Source: Iodidimonas sp. SYSU 1G8 (lineage in GTDB: Bacteria > Pseudomonadota > Alphaproteobacteria > SMXS01). Taken from it: a stretch of DNA of 64,000 bases. The notes beneath the pieces are model-generated. The model was not told the origin of the DNA and did not search any database. It saw nothing but the letters and a program-made list of their open reading frames with translations. This document shows, one piece after another, positions 1,244-13,955 of the stretch; position 1 is the first letter of the stretch, and each line of letters starts with the position of its first letter. The stretch is taken from assembly GCF_039655775.1 (NCBI RefSeq), contig NZ_JBBYXJ010000001.1, positions 744,001-808,000 on the forward strand. The letters run 5' to 3'. The position numbers and the translations under genes were made by a program.

Positions 1244-1328
1244 TAGTTTCACCGTCGCCACCTTCGTGGTAGAACCATGTTGCGCTGCGGCAGCGCGCTC
1301 GTCTATTACCCTGTCCGTCAGGAGTTCC

Positions 1329-2759
1329 GTGACCCCTTCGTCCAGCCCCCCGACTTCCGTCGTAACCCGCTTCGCGCCCTCTCCGACGGGATACTTGCAC
1401 ATTGGCGGCGCACGCACCGCCCTGTTCAACTGGTTGTTCGCCCGCCACCATGGCGGCCAGTTTCTCCTGCGAATCGAAGATACGGACAGGGAACGCTCCA
1501 CGCAGGCCGCCATCGACGCCATTATCGCCGGCCTTGACTGGCTTGGCCTAGATCATCACGGCGAGATCGTGCTGCAGTCCACCCGCGCCGCGCGTCATGC
1601 GGCGGTCGCGCACAGTCTGCTTGAATCCGGAAAGGCCTATCGCTGCTACGCCTCGGTCGAGGAGCTGGCCGAAATGCGCGAGAAGGCAAGAGCCGAAGGG
1701 CGCCCGATCCGCTACGACGGACGCTGGCGCGACCGCGACGCGGCCGATGCGCCCGCCGGCGTTTCTCCGGTCATCCGCCTCAGAACCCCGCAAGACGGCG
1801 ATACGGTTATCGATGATGCTGTCCAGGGTACCGTGCGGATCGCCAATGGCCAGTTGGACGACATGGTGCTGTTGCGCGCCGACGGCACGCCCACATACAT
1901 GCTGTCGGTCGTCGTCGACGATCACGATATGGGAATCACCCATGTGGTGCGCGGCGACGATCACCTCACCAATGCGTTCCGTCAGTTCCACATCTACGAC
2001 CTGATGGGATGGGACATCCCCGTTTTCGCCCATATTCCCCTGATTCACGGTCCGGACGGCGCCAAGCTGTCCAAGCGCCACGGCGCCCTTGGCGTCGAAG
2101 CCTACCGTGACATGGGCTACCTGCCAGAGGCATTGCGCAACTACCTGCTGCGCCTGGGCTGGGGCCATGGCGACGACGAGATCATCTCGACCGAACAGGC
2201 CATCGAATGGTTCGATCTCGGCGGCGTCGGCCGGTCCGCCTCGCGCTTCGATTTCGCCAAGCTCGAGAATCTCAACGGCCATTACCTGCGTCAGGCCGAT
2301 GACGCGCGTCTCGCCGATCTGACCGTGCCGCTGGTGGAATCATTGCTGGAGCGGAAACTTGATGACGCGGCGCGGCGTCGTATCTTCCTCGCCATGCCTG
2401 GTCTGAAGGAACGGGCCAAGACCCTCGTCGAACTCGCGGACGCCGCCCTCTTCCTCGCAGCAGAACGCCCTCTGAAGGTGGACGAGAAGGCCCGGACGTT
2501 GTTAGATAACCCGGAAGCCCAGACGATCCTGGGTCACGCCTATTCGGGGCTAAGGTCCGTGCCGGAGTGGCATGCCGAGGCTCTCGACCTGAAACTGAGA
2601 CAAATGAGTGAGGCCGAAGGGATAAAGTTCGGCAAGATCGCACAGCCGCTTCGCGCGGCGCTTTGCGGGCGCACCACCTCGCCCGGTATATTCGATGTTC
2701 TTGCGGTGCTCGGGCGCGACGAGAGCCTGGCCCGCATCGCTGATCAGATGAACGCATGA
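1329..2759 (+). CDS. gltX: Glutamate--tRNA ligase
   Basis: This class I aminoacyl-tRNA synthetase charges tRNA-Glu with glutamate in the cytoplasm. The Rossmann-fold signature is seen at the N-terminus ([20 protein letters not shown], containing the HIGH-type motif) and the KMSKS-type loop as [12 protein letters not shown]. An upstream ATG at 1266 is in frame, but I prefer the GTG at 1329 because AGGAG (1320-1324) lies four bases before it and family proteins begin a few residues before the TRFAPSP motif. This gives 476 residues, normal for the family. It is followed 39 bp later by gltA in the same direction, a common alphaproteobacterial pairing. Many alphaproteobacteria have two GltX copies and use one for both tRNA-Glu and tRNA-Gln; which type this is was not resolved. 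Confidence 0.96.
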
Positions 2760-2798
2760 GACGGCACAAGGGGCCGCCGGACAGACAGGGGAATGCAG

Positions 2799-4097
2799 AT
2801 GGCTGAAAATGGAAAAGTGTCAAAACTGTCGGTAGGTGAAAAGTCGGTCCAGATGCCGATCCTCGAAGGAACGCTCGGCCCGGACGTGGTCGATGTGCGC
2901 AAGCTGTATGGCGATGCGGGCGTGTTCACCTTCGATCCCGGCTTCACCTCGACCGCGAGCTGCCAGTCGAAGATCACCTATATCGATGGTGACGAGGGTG
3001 TCCTGCTCCATCGCGGCTATCCGATCGAAGAGCTCGCACGCCATTCGGACTTCGAGGAAGTCAGCTATCTGCTGCTCTACGGCGAACTGCCGAACAAGGA
3101 ACAGCGCGCGAATTTCGTTCGCGGCATCACCTATCACACCATGGTGCACGAGCAGCTGCGCGAATTTTTCCGCGGCTTCCGCAGGGATGCGCATCCCATG
3201 GCCGTCATGTGCGGCGTCGTCGGCGCCCTCTCCGCTTTCTATCATGACAGCACGGACATCAACGACCCGCACCAGCGGATGGTCGCGTCCTATCGTCTGG
3301 TCGCCAAGATGCCGACCATCGCGGCCATGGCCTACAAGTATTCGGCGGGCCAGCCGTTCGTCTATCCGCGCAACGACCTGAATTACGCGGAAAACTTCCT
3401 GCACATGATGTTCGCCGTGCCTGCCGAGCCCTACACGCCGAATCCGATCCTGGCCCGCGCCATGGATCGCATCTTCACCCTGCATGCCGATCACGAACAG
3501 AACGCCTCGACCTCGACTGTGCGTCTTGCCGGTTCGTCGGGCGCGAACCCGTTCGCCTGCATCGCCGCTGGCATCGCCTGCCTGTGGGGGCCCGCCCATG
3601 GCGGCGCCAACGAAGCGGTGCTGTTGATGCTCGAGGAGATCGGATCGAAGGACCGCGTCGCCGAATACGTCAAGAAGGCCAAGAACAAGGACGACCCGTT
3701 CCGCCTGATGGGCTTCGGCCACCGTGTCTACAAGAACTACGATCCGCGCGCCAAGGTGATGCAGGAAACCTGCCATGAGGTCCTCGGCGCCCTCGGCAAG
3801 CAGGACGATCCGCTGCTCGAGCTGGCCATGGAGCTGGAGCGGATCGCCCTCGAGGACGATTATTTCGTCGAGAAGAAGCTGTACCCGAACGTCGACTTCT
3901 ATTCGGGCATCATCCTGCGCGCCATGGGTTTCCCGACCAGCATGTTCACCGTGCTGTTCGCCGTCGCCCGTACCGTCGGCTGGGTCGCCCAGTGGAACGA
4001 GATGATCGAGGACCCGATGCAGAAGATCGGCCGTCCGCGCCAGCTGTACATGGGCGCCCCGCAGCGCGCCTATGTGCCCATCGAAGACCGCAAATAG
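2799..4097 (+). CDS. gltA: Citrate synthase (type II)
   Basis: This enzyme condenses oxaloacetate and acetyl-CoA to citrate, the entry step of the TCA cycle. The 432-residue length and the N-terminal beta-rich domain are typical of hexameric NADH-regulated Gram-negative enzymes. Catalytic-region signatures are visible: [15 protein letters not shown] (histidine), [11 protein letters not shown], and [14 protein letters not shown] with the second histidine. An ATG at 2793 is also in frame, but AGGGGA at 2787-2792 is correctly spaced for the ATG at 2799. The gene ends at a bidirectional terminator shared with convergent fabZ. In most alphaproteobacteria the convergent or neighbouring gene here would be lpxB; it is missing. 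Confidence 0.98.
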
Positions 4098-4118
4098 GCG
4101 GCAGGCGCCCTATCATGA

Positions 4119-4149
4119 AAAAGGCGGCCTCGATGGCCGCCTTTTTTAA
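4119..4149. terminator. Bidirectional Rho-independent terminator between gltA and fabZ
   Basis: The inverted repeat AAGGCGGCC / GGCCGCCTT closes a 5-base loop and is followed by a T-run on the plus strand and preceded by an A-run, so it can stop transcription from both gltA and fabZ. Confidence 0.9.
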
Positions 4150-4175
4150 TGGATGCGCTGCGTGGCCGGTAATGG

Positions 4176-4649
4176 TCAGCGCGGACGCTTCTCGATCACC
4201 GCCGACAGCGACGCCTCGGTGACGACCTTGCCGTCGACCTTGGCCTGTACGGCGAGACGCCACAGGAACGAGCGCGCCTTTTCCTTCTGCACATGCAGAT
4301 GGAGCTGATCGCCCGGCACCACCTGCTGGCGGAATTTCGCGTTATCGACGGAAGTGAGATAGACCAGCGCCTCTTCCTCGTCGGACAGCAGGATGTCCAT
4401 GGCGAGAACGGCCGCGGTCTGCGCCAGCGCTTCGATGATCAGAACGCCGGGCATCACCGGTTTCTCGGGAAAATGGCCCATGAAGAACGGTTCGTTGGCG
4501 GTCACGTTCTTGATGCCGATGGCGCGCTCGCCACGTTCGAGCACATGGACCTTGTCGACCAGCAGCATGGGGTAACGATGAGGGATAAGGCGCTTGATGC
4601 GCTCCAGATCGAAGGTGGCGACGATCTCTTCCCCGATGAACCCGTTCAT
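4176..4649 (-). CDS. fabZ: 3-hydroxyacyl-[acyl-carrier-protein] dehydratase
   Basis: FabZ dehydrates 3-hydroxyacyl-ACP to trans-2-enoyl-ACP in type II fatty acid synthesis. The hot-dog fold signature GHFPEKPVMPGVLIIEAL is present with the catalytic His59 and Glu73; the 157-residue length is normal. It normally lies between lpxD and lpxA in the lipid A cluster. Here neither neighbour is present: upstream is skp, separated by a terminator, and downstream is convergent gltA. FabZ itself competes with LpxA for 3-hydroxyacyl-ACP, which explains the usual linkage; its retention after loss of the lpx genes fits its essential role in fatty acid synthesis. Confidence 0.97.
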   Translation of the reverse strand: MNGFIGEEIVATFDLERIKRLIPHRYPMLLVDKVHVLERGERAIGIKNVTANEPFFMGHFPEKPVMPGVLIIEALAQTAAVLAMDILLSDEEEALVYLTSVDNAKFRQQVVPGDQLHLHVQKEKARSFLWRLAVQAKVDGKVVTEASLSAVIEKRPR

Positions 4650-4710
4650 GCCCGCTGCCCTTTCCGCCTGACGAATTTGGTGGCCTTTAATAGCAGATGC
4701 TGAACAAAGA

Positions 4711-4745
4711 GAAAGTCCCCCGCGAGAGGCTCGCGAGGGACTTTC
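4711..4745 (-). terminator. Terminator-like hairpin downstream of skp
   Basis: A long inverted repeat (GAAAGTCCC...GGGACTTTC, with an inner GCGAG/CTCGC stem) lies just after the skp stop codon and is followed on the minus strand by a moderately T-rich stretch. It probably ends the rpsB-side block before fabZ and marks where lpxD would normally begin. Confidence 0.65.
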
Positions 4746-4770
4746 AAAATTCCCCGTTGGTATCGGGACG

Positions 4771-5355
4771 TTACGGCTTGGGTGCCGCGCTGGCCGCCGG
4801 GACGTTGACCTTGATGGTCGGCATGGACTGATCCAGCTTCTGGATCACTTCACGCGTCACGTCGATGACCTGGCCCGTGGCCAGGAACATGCGGCTTTCG
4901 GCAACCATGTTGGCATTGTACTTGGTCAGCAGCTGCTGATAGATCGGGTTCAGAGCCGCCATGATGTCTTTTTCCGCATTGCTCAGAGCGGTCTGGACGC
5001 GATTGGCCTTATCCTGAATGGCCGCGCGCGAATTCATGTACTTCTGCTGATATTCCTGAGCCTTCGCCTGGAGCGCGTCCTTGGCGAGAACGGCTTCCTG
5101 CCGGCGGATCTCCGCTTCGAACTCGCGGCCCTGCTGTTCGTTCTTGGCGTTGTCCGCCTCGATCTCCGAACCGTAGGTCTTGCCCTGGCGGATGAGTTCC
5201 TTGCCCGCCATCGAAGTGCTGATTACTTCCCCAAGATTGACGACGATGATCTTCGCTGGCGCAGCTTCCTGCGCGAAGACATTGGTGCTAGCACAAAACA
5301 CGAACATGGCGGCGATCACCGCCAGCCCAGTACGCGTGAAGTTCCGGTTTTTCAT
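4771..5355 (-). CDS. skp: OmpH/Skp family periplasmic chaperone
   Basis: Skp holds unfolded outer-membrane proteins in the periplasm on their way to the Bam complex. The 194-residue protein has a clear signal peptide (basic MKNRNFTR, hydrophobic core, cleavage probably after VFA near residue 28), then a long charged alpha-helical region (about residues 70-150, consistent with the coiled-coil tentacles) and a conserved C-terminal strand with VIDVTREVIQKLD. It overlaps the bamA stop by one base (TAATG), so the two are translationally coupled. The position beside bamA is the family norm; the missing downstream lpxD is not. Confidence 0.92.
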   Translation of the reverse strand: MKNRNFTRTGLAVIAAMFVFCASTNVFAQEAAPAKIIVVNLGEVISTSMAGKELIRQGKTYGSEIEADNAKNEQQGREFEAEIRRQEAVLAKDALQAKAQEYQQKYMNSRAAIQDKANRVQTALSNAEKDIMAALNPIYQQLLTKYNANMVAESRMFLATGQVIDVTREVIQKLDQSMPTIKVNVPAASAAPKP

Positions 5356-7682
5356 TAGAATCTGGTCCCGACGTTGAATTGGAAGAACTGCGTTTCGTCA
5401 AAGCTCTCTTTGCGAATGGCTTTGGCGAAGTCAAAGCGGATAGGTCCGAAAGGCGATTTCCACGAGAAACCAATACCGGCTGACATGCGGATGCTGCCCG
5501 AAGAAAGCACAGACTCACACGTGGTTACGCCCTTGTCATCCGTCTTACAGATGCTGCCATTCGTAACCCCGTCCAAGCCATAGAGGGTACCGAAGTCAAC
5601 GAACGCGCTCGCTGTAATACCAAACTCTTCAACCGCCCCCAAGGGAATAAAGACCTCGAAGGAGCCGGCGAAGAATGTATTGGCGCCCAGTGCGTCATCC
5701 GTGCTTACGAGACGCGGGCCGACGCCTGCCTGCTCGAAGCCGCGAAGACGGCTGCCACCAAGGAAGTAGCGCTCGTTGATCCGGATGTCCTGACCGAGGC
5801 CGAAGATATGGCCTGCCTCGAGCGAGATGTTGGCTACCCAATCCTCGCCGATGAACAGCAGCGGATAGTACCAGTCGTAGTTCAGGCGACTGCGAAGATA
5901 GCGCGTATTGCCGCCGAGGCCGGCCACGTCCTGGGACAGGACGATGTTGAAGCCGCGGGTCGGCTTGATCCGGTCGTCGCGCACGTCATAGGCCAGCGTA
6001 TAGCCGACCGACGAGGTGAAGAACGTGCCTTCATCGATGTAGACGGACTGAATGAGCTGCTGCTGATCGGTCACATCGTCATAGCGGAACTGATAGCGCA
6101 GACCCATCGAGAGATACTCGGTGATGGGGAACACGGCGCGCAGATTGGTACCGCTAGAGGCCTGAGTGAACGACGATTCCTTGTAGTCGACGCGCCGGTG
6201 GAACAGGTCGAAGCCGGCCGCCAGATTGCGATTGAGGAAGTACGGCTCGGTGAAGCCGAGATCGATCTGCTGGCGGCGGCCGGAGGCGGCCAGCGATACA
6301 CGCAGATCCTGACCTTTGCCGAGCAGGTTGCGCTCGCGGATACTGACTTCGCCGATCAGGCTTTCACTGGACGACACGCCGGCACCGATGCTGAGTTCGC
6401 CGGTCGACTGTTCCTGCACGGTGGCGGTCAGGACCACGCGGTCGGGCGAGCTGCCCTGCGCCTGATCGATTTCCGCTTCCTCGAAATAGCCCAGACCCTT
6501 CACGCGGGTCCGCGACCGGCGCAGCTTGGCGGTATTGAACGCGTCGCCTTCGACCAGGCGGAACTCGCGCCGAATCACCTTGTCCAGGGTCCGGACGTTG
6601 CCAACGATGTCGATGCGCTCGACATAGACTCGCGGCGCGTCCAGCACACGGTAGGTGATGCTGATGACACGGTTTTCCTTGTCGCGCGTGATCTTGGGAC
6701 GCACGTTGACGAAGGCATAACCGGCCTTGCCCGCGGCCTCGGTGATCGCCTCGACGGTCTTTTCGATTTCCTGCGCGTTGTACTTCTCGCCCTCTTGCGT
6801 CAGCACTAGGTGCTTCAGCTGCTCGGGGTCGACGTCCTCGATCTCGCTCTCCACGTCGACCTTGCCGACGGTGTAGATCGGGCCTTCTTCGAGGGTGATG
6901 GTGATGAAGAAGTCCTCGCGGTCGCGGCCCAGTTCGGCCACGGCGGAGATGGTCCGGAAATCCGCGAAGCCGCGCTGCAGGTAGTACTGGCGCAGCAGTT
7001 CGCGATCGTACAGCAACCGATCCGGATCATAGGTATCGTTGGAGGTCAGGAAGCGCCACCAACGGGCTTCCTTGGTCGCCACTTCGCCGCGCAGGTCACC
7101 ATCCGAGAACTTCTCGTTGCCGATGATGTTGATGCGGCGCACCGTGGTCTTTTCGCCCTCGGTGATCTCATAGATCAGGTTCACGCGGTTCTGGGGCAGT
7201 TCGATGATCTTCGGCTCGACCGTCGCGGCGAAACGGCCGGACCGACGATAGAGTTCGATCAGCCGCTGCAGATCGGCCTGAACTTTCGCCCGGGTGAACA
7301 CCGTACGCGGCTTGATCTGCAGCTCCTGGCGGAGCTTGTCGTCCTCGAGCTTCTTGTTTCCCTCGAAGGCGATACGATTGACGATCGGGTTCTCGACCAG
7401 CGACACGACGAGAACGCTGCCCTGCAGCTCGATCCTGACATCGGCGAAAAGTCCGGTGCCGAAGAGACGCTTCAGCGACTGATCGACCACATCGGCCTGG
7501 TACCGGTCGCCCGGCGCCAGAAGCAGGTAGGACCGGACCGTGTCCGGCTCGATACGCTGATTGCCTTCAACCCTGATCGCCGACACGACGCCGCCCGTCT
7601 GGGCGAGCACAGGGTGCCCAGCCGCCGGTACGGTCACCAGAGCTGCGGCGAGCAGCCACGACTTCCACGAATACTGCCGCAT
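5355..7682 (-). CDS. bamA: Outer membrane protein assembly factor BamA
   Basis: BamA is the Omp85-family core of the machine that inserts beta-barrel proteins in the outer membrane. The 775-residue precursor has a signal peptide (cleavage probably after VLAQ, near residue 28), five POTRA domains (about residues 30-430) and a C-terminal 16-stranded barrel. The loop-6 signature appears as SRLRGFEQAG and the protein ends in a terminal phenylalanine (GTRF), as expected for an Omp85 barrel. It lies between rseP (39-bp gap) and skp (one-base overlap). Its presence proves the cell has a beta-barrel-bearing outer membrane, which matters for interpreting the missing lpx genes. Confidence 0.97.
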   Translation of the reverse strand: MRQYSWKSWLLAAALVTVPAAGHPVLAQTGGVVSAIRVEGNQRIEPDTVRSYLLLAPGDRYQADVVDQSLKRLFGTGLFADVRIELQGSVLVVSLVENPIVNRIAFEGNKKLEDDKLRQELQIKPRTVFTRAKVQADLQRLIELYRRSGRFAATVEPKIIELPQNRVNLIYEITEGEKTTVRRINIIGNEKFSDGDLRGEVATKEARWWRFLTSNDTYDPDRLLYDRELLRQYYLQRGFADFRTISAVAELGRDREDFFITITLEEGPIYTVGKVDVESEIEDVDPEQLKHLVLTQEGEKYNAQEIEKTVEAITEAAGKAGYAFVNVRPKITRDKENRVISITYRVLDAPRVYVERIDIVGNVRTLDKVIRREFRLVEGDAFNTAKLRRSRTRVKGLGYFEEAEIDQAQGSSPDRVVLTATVQEQSTGELSIGAGVSSSESLIGEVSIRERNLLGKGQDLRVSLAASGRRQQIDLGFTEPYFLNRNLAAGFDLFHRRVDYKESSFTQASSGTNLRAVFPITEYLSMGLRYQFRYDDVTDQQQLIQSVYIDEGTFFTSSVGYTLAYDVRDDRIKPTRGFNIVLSQDVAGLGGNTRYLRSRLNYDWYYPLLFIGEDWVANISLEAGHIFGLGQDIRINERYFLGGSRLRGFEQAGVGPRLVSTDDALGANTFFAGSFEVFIPLGAVEEFGITASAFVDFGTLYGLDGVTNGSICKTDDKGVTTCESVLSSGSIRMSAGIGFSWKSPFGPIRFDFAKAIRKESFDETQFFQFNVGTRF

Positions 7683-7721: not shown

Positions 7722-8810
7722 TCAGGGTATCCAGCTGCTGACGTCGTTGAACGTGACAACGACCATCAACAGCAGCACGAGAGCCATTCCCACACGGAAT
7801 CCGTACTCTTGGACCTTCTCGCCCAACGGGCGGCCGCGAACGGCTTCAAAGGCATAATAGAGAAGATGCCCGCCGTCCAGCATGGGAATCGGAAACAGGT
7901 TGATAAGGCCCAGATTCACCGAGAGCATGCCGGCCAGCATGACCAGCGCGACAAGGCTTACCTGAGCGACTTCACCGGATACCTCGGCGATCTTCAGCGG
8001 CCCGCCCAGCTCCTTCACAGACCGCTCGCCTCGCAGCATCTCGCCGACCACGTGCAGAATCATGACCACATCGTCGCGAATCTGCCTCACGGCGTAGACC
8101 GGCGCTTCCAGCGGACCGCGCTGGACCGTCTCGCGTCCGGTGCTGGTGATGCCGAGCTGGCCGATCTTCATGGAATTGCGCTCGAACGTGGCGGGCGTCG
8201 CGGCAAAGACCATCACCTCGCCATCGCGCTCGACCCGCATGCTCAGTTCCTTGCCCGGGTTCATCGCGATCAGGTTCGCGACCTCCTCGAAGGTCTGGAC
8301 CTCGAAAGCCCCCACGTTCAGGATCCTGTCGCCCGTCCTGAGACCGCCCGCTTCAGCCGGCGATCCGGCGACCACCTTGTCGACGACAGGTGGCGTATAG
8401 GGCTGCCCTACGGCCATGAACATGACGGTGAAGATGACAAAGGCGAGCAGGAAATTGGCGATCGGACCCGCCGCCACGACGAGCGCGCGCTGATGCAGCG
8501 GGCGGAAATGGAAGCAGTCCCGCTTGTCCTCTTCCGACAGGGACTGAATGTCGCTGTTCTGGTTGCTGGCTCCGCTGGCGTCTCCGAAGAATTTGACGTA
8601 ACCGCCCAGAGGAACAGCCGAAATTCGCCATTCGATGCCGTGGCGATCCTTACGGCTCCAGAGCGAGGGGCCGAAACCGATGGAGAACACATCAACCCGG
8701 ATGCCGAAGCGGCGGGCGACCCAGAAATGCCCCAGCTCGTGAAAGAACACGAGGACCGAGAAGACGACAACGAACGATACGGCTGCGATACCTATGGATA
8801 AGATGTCCAT
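7722..8810 (-). CDS. rseP: RIP metalloprotease RseP (site-2 protease family)
   Basis: This zinc protease cuts transmembrane substrates inside the inner membrane; its best-known targets are anti-sigma factors of the envelope stress response and leftover signal peptides. The zinc site HELGH is at residues 24-28 in the first membrane segment, and the second motif PIPMLDGGHLL is near the C-terminus. A PDZ domain lies around residues 140-220. The 362-residue length suggests one PDZ domain, shorter than the 450-residue two-PDZ enzyme of E. coli and usual for alphaproteobacteria. It sits in the conserved dxr-rseP-bamA order. Confidence 0.95.
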   Translation of the reverse strand: MDILSIGIAAVSFVVVFSVLVFFHELGHFWVARRFGIRVDVFSIGFGPSLWSRKDRHGIEWRISAVPLGGYVKFFGDASGASNQNSDIQSLSEEDKRDCFHFRPLHQRALVVAAGPIANFLLAFVIFTVMFMAVGQPYTPPVVDKVVAGSPAEAGGLRTGDRILNVGAFEVQTFEEVANLIAMNPGKELSMRVERDGEVMVFAATPATFERNSMKIGQLGITSTGRETVQRGPLEAPVYAVRQIRDDVVMILHVVGEMLRGERSVKELGGPLKIAEVSGEVAQVSLVALVMLAGMLSVNLGLINLFPIPMLDGGHLLYYAFEAVRGRPLGEKVQEYGFRVGMALVLLLMVVVTFNDVSSWIP

Positions 8811-12153: not shown

Positions 12154-12162
12154 GTTCGGCTC

Positions 12163-12882
12163 CTATTTACCTATGGTCGTGAACGTGCCCTTGCCGGACA
12201 GCACCCGTGTCAGGCCGCCCGGCTCCTGAATGGAGAAAACAAGGATCGGAATGTCGTTTTCGCGGGCCAGCGAAACCGCCGAGGCATCCATCACCTTGAG
12301 ATCATTGGACAGGACCTCGAGATAGTTCAGATGCGTATGGTAGATGGCGTCCGGATTCTTCTTGGGATCATCGGAATAGACGCCATCGACCTGCGTCCCC
12401 TTCAGCAGGGCGTCGCACCGCATCTCGGCCGCGCGCAGGGCGGCCGCGGTATCGGTGGTGAAGAAAGGATTGCCGGTGCCCGCCGCGAAGATCACCACCC
12501 TTCCCTTCTCCATGTGCCGGATCGCCCGGCGACGGATGTAGGGTTCGCAGACGCTGGACATCGGGATGGCGGACAGAACCCGGGTCGCCATGCCCTTGTT
12601 TTCCATGATGTTCTGCATGGCCAGGGCGTTCATGACGGTGGCCAGCATGCCGATCTGGTCGGCGCTGGCACGGTCCATGCCCTGAGCGGCGCCGGACAGG
12701 CCGCGGAAGATGTTGCCGCCGCCGATCACCAGGCAGACCTCGGTCCCGGCGGTGACGACACGCTTTACGTCATCGGCGATACGGTCGACCGTGGCAAGAT
12801 CGATGCCGTAGGACTGGTCGCCCATCAAGGCCTCGCCGGACACCTTGAGCAGGATGCGGCGGTATGGACTTGGCGTTACCAA
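12163..12882 (-). CDS. pyrH: Uridylate kinase (UMP kinase)
   Basis: PyrH phosphorylates UMP to UDP and belongs to the amino-acid-kinase fold, unlike eukaryotic UMP kinases. Visible signatures are [14 protein letters not shown] (phosphate-binding), [10 protein letters not shown] and [22 protein letters not shown]. The 239-residue length is standard. The start appears to be TTG at 12882: AAGGGG sits five bases upstream, and the nearby ATG is out of frame. A terminator-like hairpin separates it from tsf, so it probably has its own promoter. Confidence 0.96.
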
Positions 12883-12995
12883 AGCATTCCCCTTCTTGCG
12901 TCATGGCGCGGCAGGCCGCGCCGCCAAACTCGGCGGCGCACCTTACAACAACTCGGCTGGGCTTATGTAGCCCGTATTGCAGCTATATGTCGAAA

Positions 12996-13024
12996 TTGCC
13001 GCGCCCCGCGGGGGAGCGCGGCAA
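12996..13024 (-). terminator. Terminator hairpin downstream of tsf
   Basis: TTGCCGCGC and GCGCGGCAA form a 9-bp stem eight bases after the tsf stop codon, followed by a short T-run on the minus strand. It likely ends the rpsB-tsf transcript or reduces read-through to pyrH. Confidence 0.7.
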
Positions 13025-13031
13025 ACAGGAA

Positions 13032-13955
13032 TCAGCCGGCAAGGCTGGCGACTTCGGCCGCGAAGTCGCCCTCTTCCTTCTCGATACCCTCGCCCAGCAC
13101 GAAGCGGACGAAACCGGTTACCTTCACCTCGGTACCGAGGCTCTTGGCCAGGTCGGCGACGACCTTCTCGATCTTGCTTTCGCCATCGATCACGAAGGTC
13201 TGCGACAGCAGAACGACTTCTTCATAGAACTTGCGCATGCGGCCATCGACCATCTTCTGGATGATGTCTTCCGCACGACCGGACTCGCGCGCCTGCTGCA
13301 CCAGCACCTGACGCTCGCGGGCGACCAGCTCCTGATCCAGATCGTCCGTCGAAAGCGATTGCGGCGCGGCGGCGGCGATATGCATGGCGAGCTGCTTGCC
13401 GAACGCATCCAGCTTGGCTGTATCGCCGGCCGATTCCAGCGCGACGATGACGCCGATCTTGCCCAGGCCCGGGATGACCGGGTTGTGGACATAGCTCGAG
13501 ACAACGCCCTGGCTCACGCTCAGGCTGGCCATCCGGCGGATCGCCATGTTCTCGCCAATGGTGGCGACGAGGTGGGTCAGCTGCTCGGCCACGGTCCGGG
13601 TCTCGTTCGGGTAACCGCTGGCGAGCACCACGTCCTGATCGCCATTATTGGCCAGCGCCAGATCGGCGACGGTCTTGACGAAGGACTGGAACGTTTCGTT
13701 ACGGGCGACGAAATCGGTTTCGGAATTGACTTCCGCCACCGCGCCGGCCTTGCCGCCGACACTGATGCCGACCAGACCCTCGGCAGCCACGCGGCCGGAC
13801 TTCTTCGCCGCGGCGGCAAGACCCTTCTGGCGCAGCCAATCGATCGATGCTTCCAGGTCGCCCGAATTCTCGGTCAGCGCCTTCTTGCAATCCATCATGC
13901 CGGCGCCGGTCTTCTCGCGAAGCTCTTTAACGAGAGCAGCGGTGATCTCAGCCAT
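13032..13955 (-). CDS. tsf: Elongation factor Ts
   Basis: EF-Ts is the nucleotide exchange factor that recycles EF-Tu-GDP. The UBA-like N-terminal domain begins [20 protein letters not shown] with the GMMDCKKAL motif; the TDFVARNE signature lies near residue 80. The start at 13955 is set by AAGGA just upstream and by family alignment; an upstream in-frame ATG at 13991 would add 12 unrelated residues. The protein is 307 residues, normal for alphaproteobacteria. It follows rpsB after an 87-bp gap containing a strong hairpin. Confidence 0.97.

Follow-up and report, generated by a model that had tools for sequence, protein, structure and literature searches.

Examination of the genome of Iodidimonas sp. 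SYSU 1G8 (G000) revealed not only that the lipid A genes are gone from the bamA locus, but also that the LPS-type LptFG pair is gone from beside lptD, the only LptFG being a sphingolipid-type pair near the serine palmitoyltransferase gene (spt), which is not visible from the window alone. The window is the whole stretch of 64 000 nt that was analysed (contig NZ_JBBYXJ010000001.1, positions 744 001 to 808 000). We put at about 75 % the probability that this organism has no lipid A or LPS, and that its outer leaflet carries a sphingolipid from the spt cluster, exported via a paralogous permease pair (LptF2/LptG2, together LptFG2) and the single LptD, a reading drawn from gene content and phylogeny.

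Gene order in the window is that of the LPS-type genome G017 (locus L298: rpsB-tsf-pyrH-frr-uppS-cdsA-dxr-rseP-bamA-skp-lpxD-fabZ-lpxA-lpxI-lpxB-<gltA-<gltX) minus the four lpx genes (Table 1). Two stretches are gone, lpxD and lpxA-lpxI-lpxB, and fabZ between them is retained; gltA, fabZ, skp and bamA are intact ORFs. FabZ also serves ordinary fatty acid synthesis. The initial annotation had described lpxD, lpxA, lpxI and lpxB as missing from a canonical bamA-skp-lpxD-fabZ-lpxA-lpxI-lpxB order beside gltA, with fabZ converging on gltA across a 78-bp gap, and had taken this for clean loss rather than disruption. Comparison with G017, where that order is seen directly, bore out each of these points, with fabZ and both flanks intact. 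A hairpin with a 16-pair stem does follow skp (4711-4745), but the sequence of its tail, TCTTTGTTCA, falls short of a clean T-run, and the terminator annotated there stands as a candidate only; positions 4000-5400 hold 4 terminator-like sites against a mean of 1.3 in shuffles. The claim that BamA, Skp, RseP and LolCD are intact holds by profile for BamA and Skp and by the match to G017 for RseP, and for LolCD at the level of ORFs. The presence of bamA shows that there is an outer membrane.

Table 1. Features of the bamA–gltA locus (window positions) and of the sphingolipid cluster (positions in region L127, which is G000:C1:313500-333400, ~20 kb)
Feature	Region	Coordinates	Strand	Basis or remark
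gltX	window	1266-2759	+	matches GltX of G017, 590 bits; ancestral flank kept
gltA, citrate synthase	window	2793-4097	+	PF00285, E 2e-145; ancestral flank kept
fabZ–gltA junction, 78 bp	window	4098-4175	.	site of lpxA-lpxI-lpxB in LPS-making relatives
fabZ, 3-hydroxyacyl-ACP dehydratase	window	4176-4649	-	TIGR01750, 185.7 bits (cut-off 155.15)
skp–fabZ junction, 121 bp	window	4650-4770	.	site of lpxD in LPS-making relatives; contains the 4711-4745 hairpin
skp/ompH, periplasmic chaperone	window	4771-5355	-	PF03938 (OmpH), 42.7 (cut-off 32.4)
bamA, outer-membrane protein assembly	window	5355-7682	-	TIGR03303, 783.9 (cut-off 297.15)
rseP	window	7722-8810	-	matched to G017
CerS-like	L127	874-2025	-	matches gene in 31 further loci; no Pfam match
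Putative fatty acid hydroxylase	L127	2031-2834	-	named by eye
Polysaccharide-family flippase	L127	2899-4470	-	
LptG	L127	4478-5581	-	TIGR04408, 286 (cut-off 240)
LptF	L127	5578-6846	-	TIGR04407, 223.2 (just under cut-off 230)
DUF2141	L127	7000-7587	+	
DAGK_cat lipid kinase	L127	7695-8669	+	CpgB-like from family and place
Unassigned protein	L127	8666-9619	+	
Spt	L127	9624-10832	-	NF047599
ACP	L127	10849-11160	-	
SDR reductase	L127	11169-12149	-	
Fatty acyl-AMP ligase	L127	12107-13888	-	

From the locus alone, the initial annotation had left two options, no canonical LPS in the manner of sphingomonads or lipid A from relocated genes, and had proposed whole-genome searches for lpx, serine palmitoyltransferase and ceramide genes. 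In genome-wide profile searches, with positive controls matching for each family, none of the 10 genomes examined from the window's order, 8 of which are 90 % or more complete, matched LpxC, LpxD or LpxB, and none had an LpxA above the cut-off of 231 bits. The sign that could favour relocated or strongly divergent lpx genes is a set of weak hexapeptide hits of the LpxA model, the best of them in G000 at 24 bits; hits of this kind turn up in all 14 control genomes as well. With LpxA, LpxB, LpxC and LpxD all without a match over cut-off in G000, their relocation is ruled out, lipid A from relocated or divergent genes is very improbable, and no known route to lipid A is left in this genome as far as its gene content tells. 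An assembly or binning artefact is less credible still. Some LpxC misses in our class sample are of that kind, seven genomes with neither an LpxC nor an Spt match bearing lpx genes at the locus, but G000 (3.92 Mb) is 100 % complete in 2 contigs, its locus is continuous, and the lpx genes are missing at the bamA locus in 8/8 genomes of the window's family whose locus was read, which rules out an assembly gap. Likewise, among 80 named bamA loci none carries an lpx gene and 79 carry fabZ; three of these (L001-L003) are of the window's genus and nearly all others are titled sphingomonads. L001 and L003 come from contigs whose titles name 'Candidatus Kuenenia stuttgartiensis' and 'Rhizobium sp. Q54', yet their BamA is 89 % identical to the window's; these bins seem to have been mislabelled.

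Serine palmitoyltransferase and ceramide genes were both found in G000, and together with the absence of LpxA/B/C/D this supports the first, sphingomonad-like option. The Spt of G000 scored 627 bits against NF047599 (curated cut-off 500), while falling below the cut-off of the alphaproteobacterial Spt model (548.5 vs 670); the full-length relatives listed for this genome number three, namely Spt itself and HemA and BioF, the latter two named from sequence and neighbourhood. All 10 genomes of the order have an Spt match. A match to the Spt model at E<=1e-100, the threshold used throughout, is insufficient as proof of Spt, as E. coli also matches. Despite this unspecific threshold, the assignment is supported because in 56/58 regions an ACP gene is found no more than 1.5 kb from the Spt match (34/35 in LPS-less and 22/23 in LPS-making genomes). 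The two exceptions are G006, where the match is at a contig start, and G215, a partial match on a short contig whose Spt is doubtful. Nine sphingomonads lay outside this reading of ACP neighbours, and their Spt passes the alphaproteobacterial model cut-off. The CerS-like gene of the cluster is putatively so named, after the layout of the Caulobacter cluster. Just past the cluster (L127:16488-19508) lie a large ORF that resembles a TonB receptor by eye and a PKHD-type hydroxylase.

G000 has one LptD and one LptF/LptG pair, and the pair lies 2.9 kb from spt. The LptD stands in the context gmk, ksgA-pdxA-surA-lptD, pepA (locus L262; LptD and PepA identified by Pfam, the other genes by eye), with no LptFG beside it. 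LptFG was 0.9-1.4 kb from LptD in 13/18 LPS-making control genomes, and in G032 LptG alone was. LptD was found in 66/76 genomes searched, including all 10 of the window's order. Among the 40 LPS-less, Spt-positive genomes having LptFG, the pair lay 0.3-12.6 kb from spt in 27: 9/10 in the window's family, 3/12 sphingomonads, 5/5 in family f30, 2/2 in f47, 3/4 in f112, 1/1 each in f24, f61, f78, f127 and genus g144 of f55, and 0/2 in f65. It was not close to spt in the other 13 (G001, 9/12 sphingomonads, G203, G073 and G170); in one sphingomonad, G394, it lies 4.2 kb from LptD. In LPS-making, Spt-positive genomes, LptF and LptG were both in the spt region in 10/23 (G030, G113, G114, G140, G180, G233, G271, G296, G333 and G349), several of the other stretches stopping at contig ends, and two such genomes, G030 and G088, each carry one LptFG pair of either type and a single LptD. 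Because the LptF of G000 misses TIGR04407 while its LptG passes TIGR04408, the curated LptF/LptG models do not reveal the substrate.

Phylogenetic inference separated the two types of pair. In a joint LptF/LptG tree of 143 rows, from which ORFs shorter than 280 aa were left out (as they were from the tree of extra copies), the LptF of 40/40 LPS-less, Spt-positive genomes grouped with the spt-linked pairs (LptFG2) of LPS-making, Spt-positive genomes, and so did the LptG of 38/40, those of G006 and G007 breaking at contig ends. The pairs adjoining LptD in LPS-making genomes lay on the opposite side. The G000 LptG, though above the LPS equivalog cut-off, was placed with the sphingolipid-type genes. 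A separate LptF tree split 44 LPS-less or sphingolipid-type rows from 20 LPS-type rows by one branch with 100/100 support, although the program flagged long branches among the LPS-type rows; this tree omits G001c (a divergent extra copy) and the near copies G003, G005, G006, G007, G227 and G282. When every extra copy was included, SH-aLRT support for the LPS-type sides was 99.5 (LptF, 20 rows) and 99.6 (LptG, 21 rows), and no LPS-less genome fell within them; the non-LPS sides as groups had values of 80.8 (LptF) and 63.2 (LptG).

Extra LptFG2-like pairs or single genes were seen away from both spt and LptD at L332-L336 (G002, G003, G214) and L174 (G001). We considered these copies as a contradiction and rejected this, as all were placed on the LptFG2 side. 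L257 (G304) and L260 (G354) each carry, near spt, a lone, very divergent LptG-like gene; in the LptG tree the two pair up on a long branch apart from the rest, and they may represent another lipid exporter. In Sphingopyxis sp. PET50, the sequence that matches LptG (G397:C1:2424778-2425821) contains one TAG.

Our study further examined 387 genomes across the class Alphaproteobacteria, with LpxC found in 340 and an Spt match in 56. Both were present in 23 genomes and LpxC alone in 317, while 33 had Spt without LpxC and 14 had neither; absence of LpxC was associated with Spt (Fisher p 6e-22, counting genomes as independent irrespective of relatedness). The reading of every LpxC miss as LPS loss was discarded, as seven of the 14 genomes with neither gene (G025, G056, G080, G123, G196, G293 and G385) bear lpx genes at the bamA locus, G293 having lpxD alone on a short contig. 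The other seven are known from profile searches: G059 still has LptFG beside LptD, and G014, G028, G085, G095, G103 and G190 (0.7-1.7 Mb) gave no match to LptFG or LptD, which fits reduced, endosymbiont-like genomes. The bamA locus was read in 32/33 sample genomes with Spt and no LpxC (in G168, BamA gave no match), as well as in G003 and G008; in all 34 loci fabZ is kept and lpxD, lpxA and lpxI are missing. Two of them, from the LPS-less family f47, still have an LpxB-like ORF of divergent sequence directly behind fabZ (L320:12433-13539 in G237; L321, ~12157-13233, in G055). These ORFs are 23-24 % identical to the LpxB of G017, and that of G237 scored 58 bits with PF02684 and 41.5 with TIGR00215 (cut-off 190); they may be relics or repurposed glycosyltransferases.

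The species trees, based on ten proteins and 2955 columns (G025, less than 35 % filled, was excluded), partly disagree. Under LG+F+G4, the window's family and the sphingomonads were joined (SH-aLRT 100); under LG+G4, a long-branched group (f22, f47 and G108) fell between them, and under a mixture model with 33 chosen rows they shared one branch (99). The view of the window lineage as a plain sphingomonad, taken from its named BamA relatives, was accordingly revised to that of a neighbour or sister group. Genomes without lpx stand beside lpx-bearing ones within three families, f24 (G141/G032), f65 (G073, G170/G249) and f78 (G086/G178), and further lpx-less groups are f30 with f61, f55, f112 and f47. 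A minimum of 9 changes of lpx state was required on 73 rows and of 6 on the 33 chosen rows. Such changes do not separate gain from loss, and loss rather than gain is inferred because the locus is conserved. When lpx state and Spt were tested against each other in pairs on the tree, the association was weak (7 pairs, median p 0.0625); the label counts cover the rows with an Spt search, two named rows (AAP81b and Sphingorhabdus) being left out. Loss of lpx across the Alphaproteobacteria accompanies Spt and takes six to nine state changes. This extends the LPS-less, ceramide pattern to the window's order and several other lineages, and points to a tie between LPS loss and sphingolipid synthesis in Alphaproteobacteria with larger genomes rather than to a peculiarity of sphingomonads.

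Spt is not always accompanied by Lpt, genus g57 of family f55 being the exception. Its four genomes (G063, G241, G307 and G367, one of them a single contig) have Spt and no LpxC (loci L216, L265, L341 and L342) and gave no match to LptFG or LptD, while G162, of the other f55 genus seen, retains both. The ligase, SDR, ACP and Spt genes are present in 4/4 g57 spt loci, from all of which the kinase-like gene and the unassigned spt neighbour are absent, and CerS-like genes were found in both g57 loci checked. On this gene content, g57 apparently has an outer membrane without an Lpt bridge but with ceramide genes; its sphingolipid may differ from that of other lineages, and may exit by another way.

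Such an exit bears on the alternative in which the cell, devoid of LPS, makes sphingolipids and sends them to its surface along a different path, LptFG2 and LptD carrying a different lipid or a glycan. The retention of Spt in g57 without LptFG or LptD speaks for it, as do the 13/40 genomes with LptFG away from spt, the polysaccharide-family flippase gene within the cluster and the several LptFG2-like copies in G001, G002, G003 and G214. The linkage of LptFG2 to spt recurs in several families, however, and the LPS-less, Spt-positive genomes that have LptFG carry LptF2 (40/40) and LptG2 (38/40) and no LPS-type copy; the force of the g57 case is reduced by the two genes absent from its spt loci, with which its product may also differ. 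We regard this alternative as unlikely, though far less so than a relocation of lpx genes or an artefact.

Under the reading we prefer, of a sphingolipid outer leaflet served by LptFG2 and LptD, the lpx genes would have been cleanly removed from the bamA–fabZ locus, fabZ staying, and the LPS-type lptF-lptG from beside lptD, with lptD and the rest of that locus staying. The outer leaflet would most likely be filled by an anionic sphingolipid, a ceramide bearing a head group built on phosphate or sugar, predicted to be made by the cluster aasR-cerR-acpR-spt-cerK-like-cerS-like. LptF2/LptG2, the permease pair of the cluster, would most likely lift it out of the inner membrane, and the single retained LptD would most likely deliver it. 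The absence of LpxA/B/C/D, the cluster, the identity and phylogeny of LptFG and the presence of LptD are established directly; from these we infer which lipid is made, where it is located and that LptFG2–LptD carries it. For the origin of this state we lean, with less assurance, towards a scenario in which lineages already possessing the sphingolipid and LptFG2 repeatedly, and by one route, lost lpx together with the LPS-type LptFG, LptD being turned to the sphingolipid so that LptFG2–LptD formed a complete bridge, and g57 subsequently lost LptFG and LptD. Several lineages with apparently separate LPS losses, g57 excepted, keep the spt-associated LptFG and no LPS-type one, and this retention of LptFG2 provides comparative support for an Lpt exporter dedicated to sphingolipid.

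Among known systems, the window lineage resembles the sphingomonads that lack LPS and have a glycosphingolipid outer membrane: the named bamA loci are equally devoid of lpx genes, Spt was found in 7/7 named sphingomonad genomes searched, and their LptFG fall on the window lineage's side of the trees. It differs in being placed in an order of its own within the genome collection, in keeping the gltA flank, which among the 80 named loci (some of them short) occurs only in L001-L003, and in its closer linkage of spt and LptFG (9/10 in the window's group vs 3/12). Rhodothalassium salexigens, of an order other than the window's, is likewise reported as lacking LPS, making ceramides and having a serine palmitoyltransferase gene (PMC11762602). 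Caulobacter keeps LPS, in contrast to G000, where the sphingolipid-type pair is the sole LptFG, and its lipid A is reportedly dispensable. LPS-free Caulobacter is reportedly dependent, in part, on anionic sphingolipid (PMC10331486). The Caulobacter crescentus cluster CC_1152-CC_1168 (PMC11324152) combines ceramide and phosphosphingolipid genes with LptC2, LptF2 and LptG2, which were proposed there as selective phosphosphingolipid transporters, transport being called unknown in 2024; it shares with G000 the association of Spt, acyl-ACP ligase, SDR reductase, ACP, CerS-like, lipid-kinase-like, flippase and LptF/LptG genes. The LptFG of G000 were likened to CC_1156/CC_1155 by cluster layout rather than by sequence. 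Among the open-access matches listed, PMC11324152 was the only one on LptF2/LptG2, and a class-wide swap from LPS to sphingolipid was not found described by title or abstract in the open-access papers listed. LPS loss in sphingomonads and the LptF2/LptG2 proposal were already known, while the window's order, the repeated swap and an Spt-positive genus without LptFG and LptD appear to be new.
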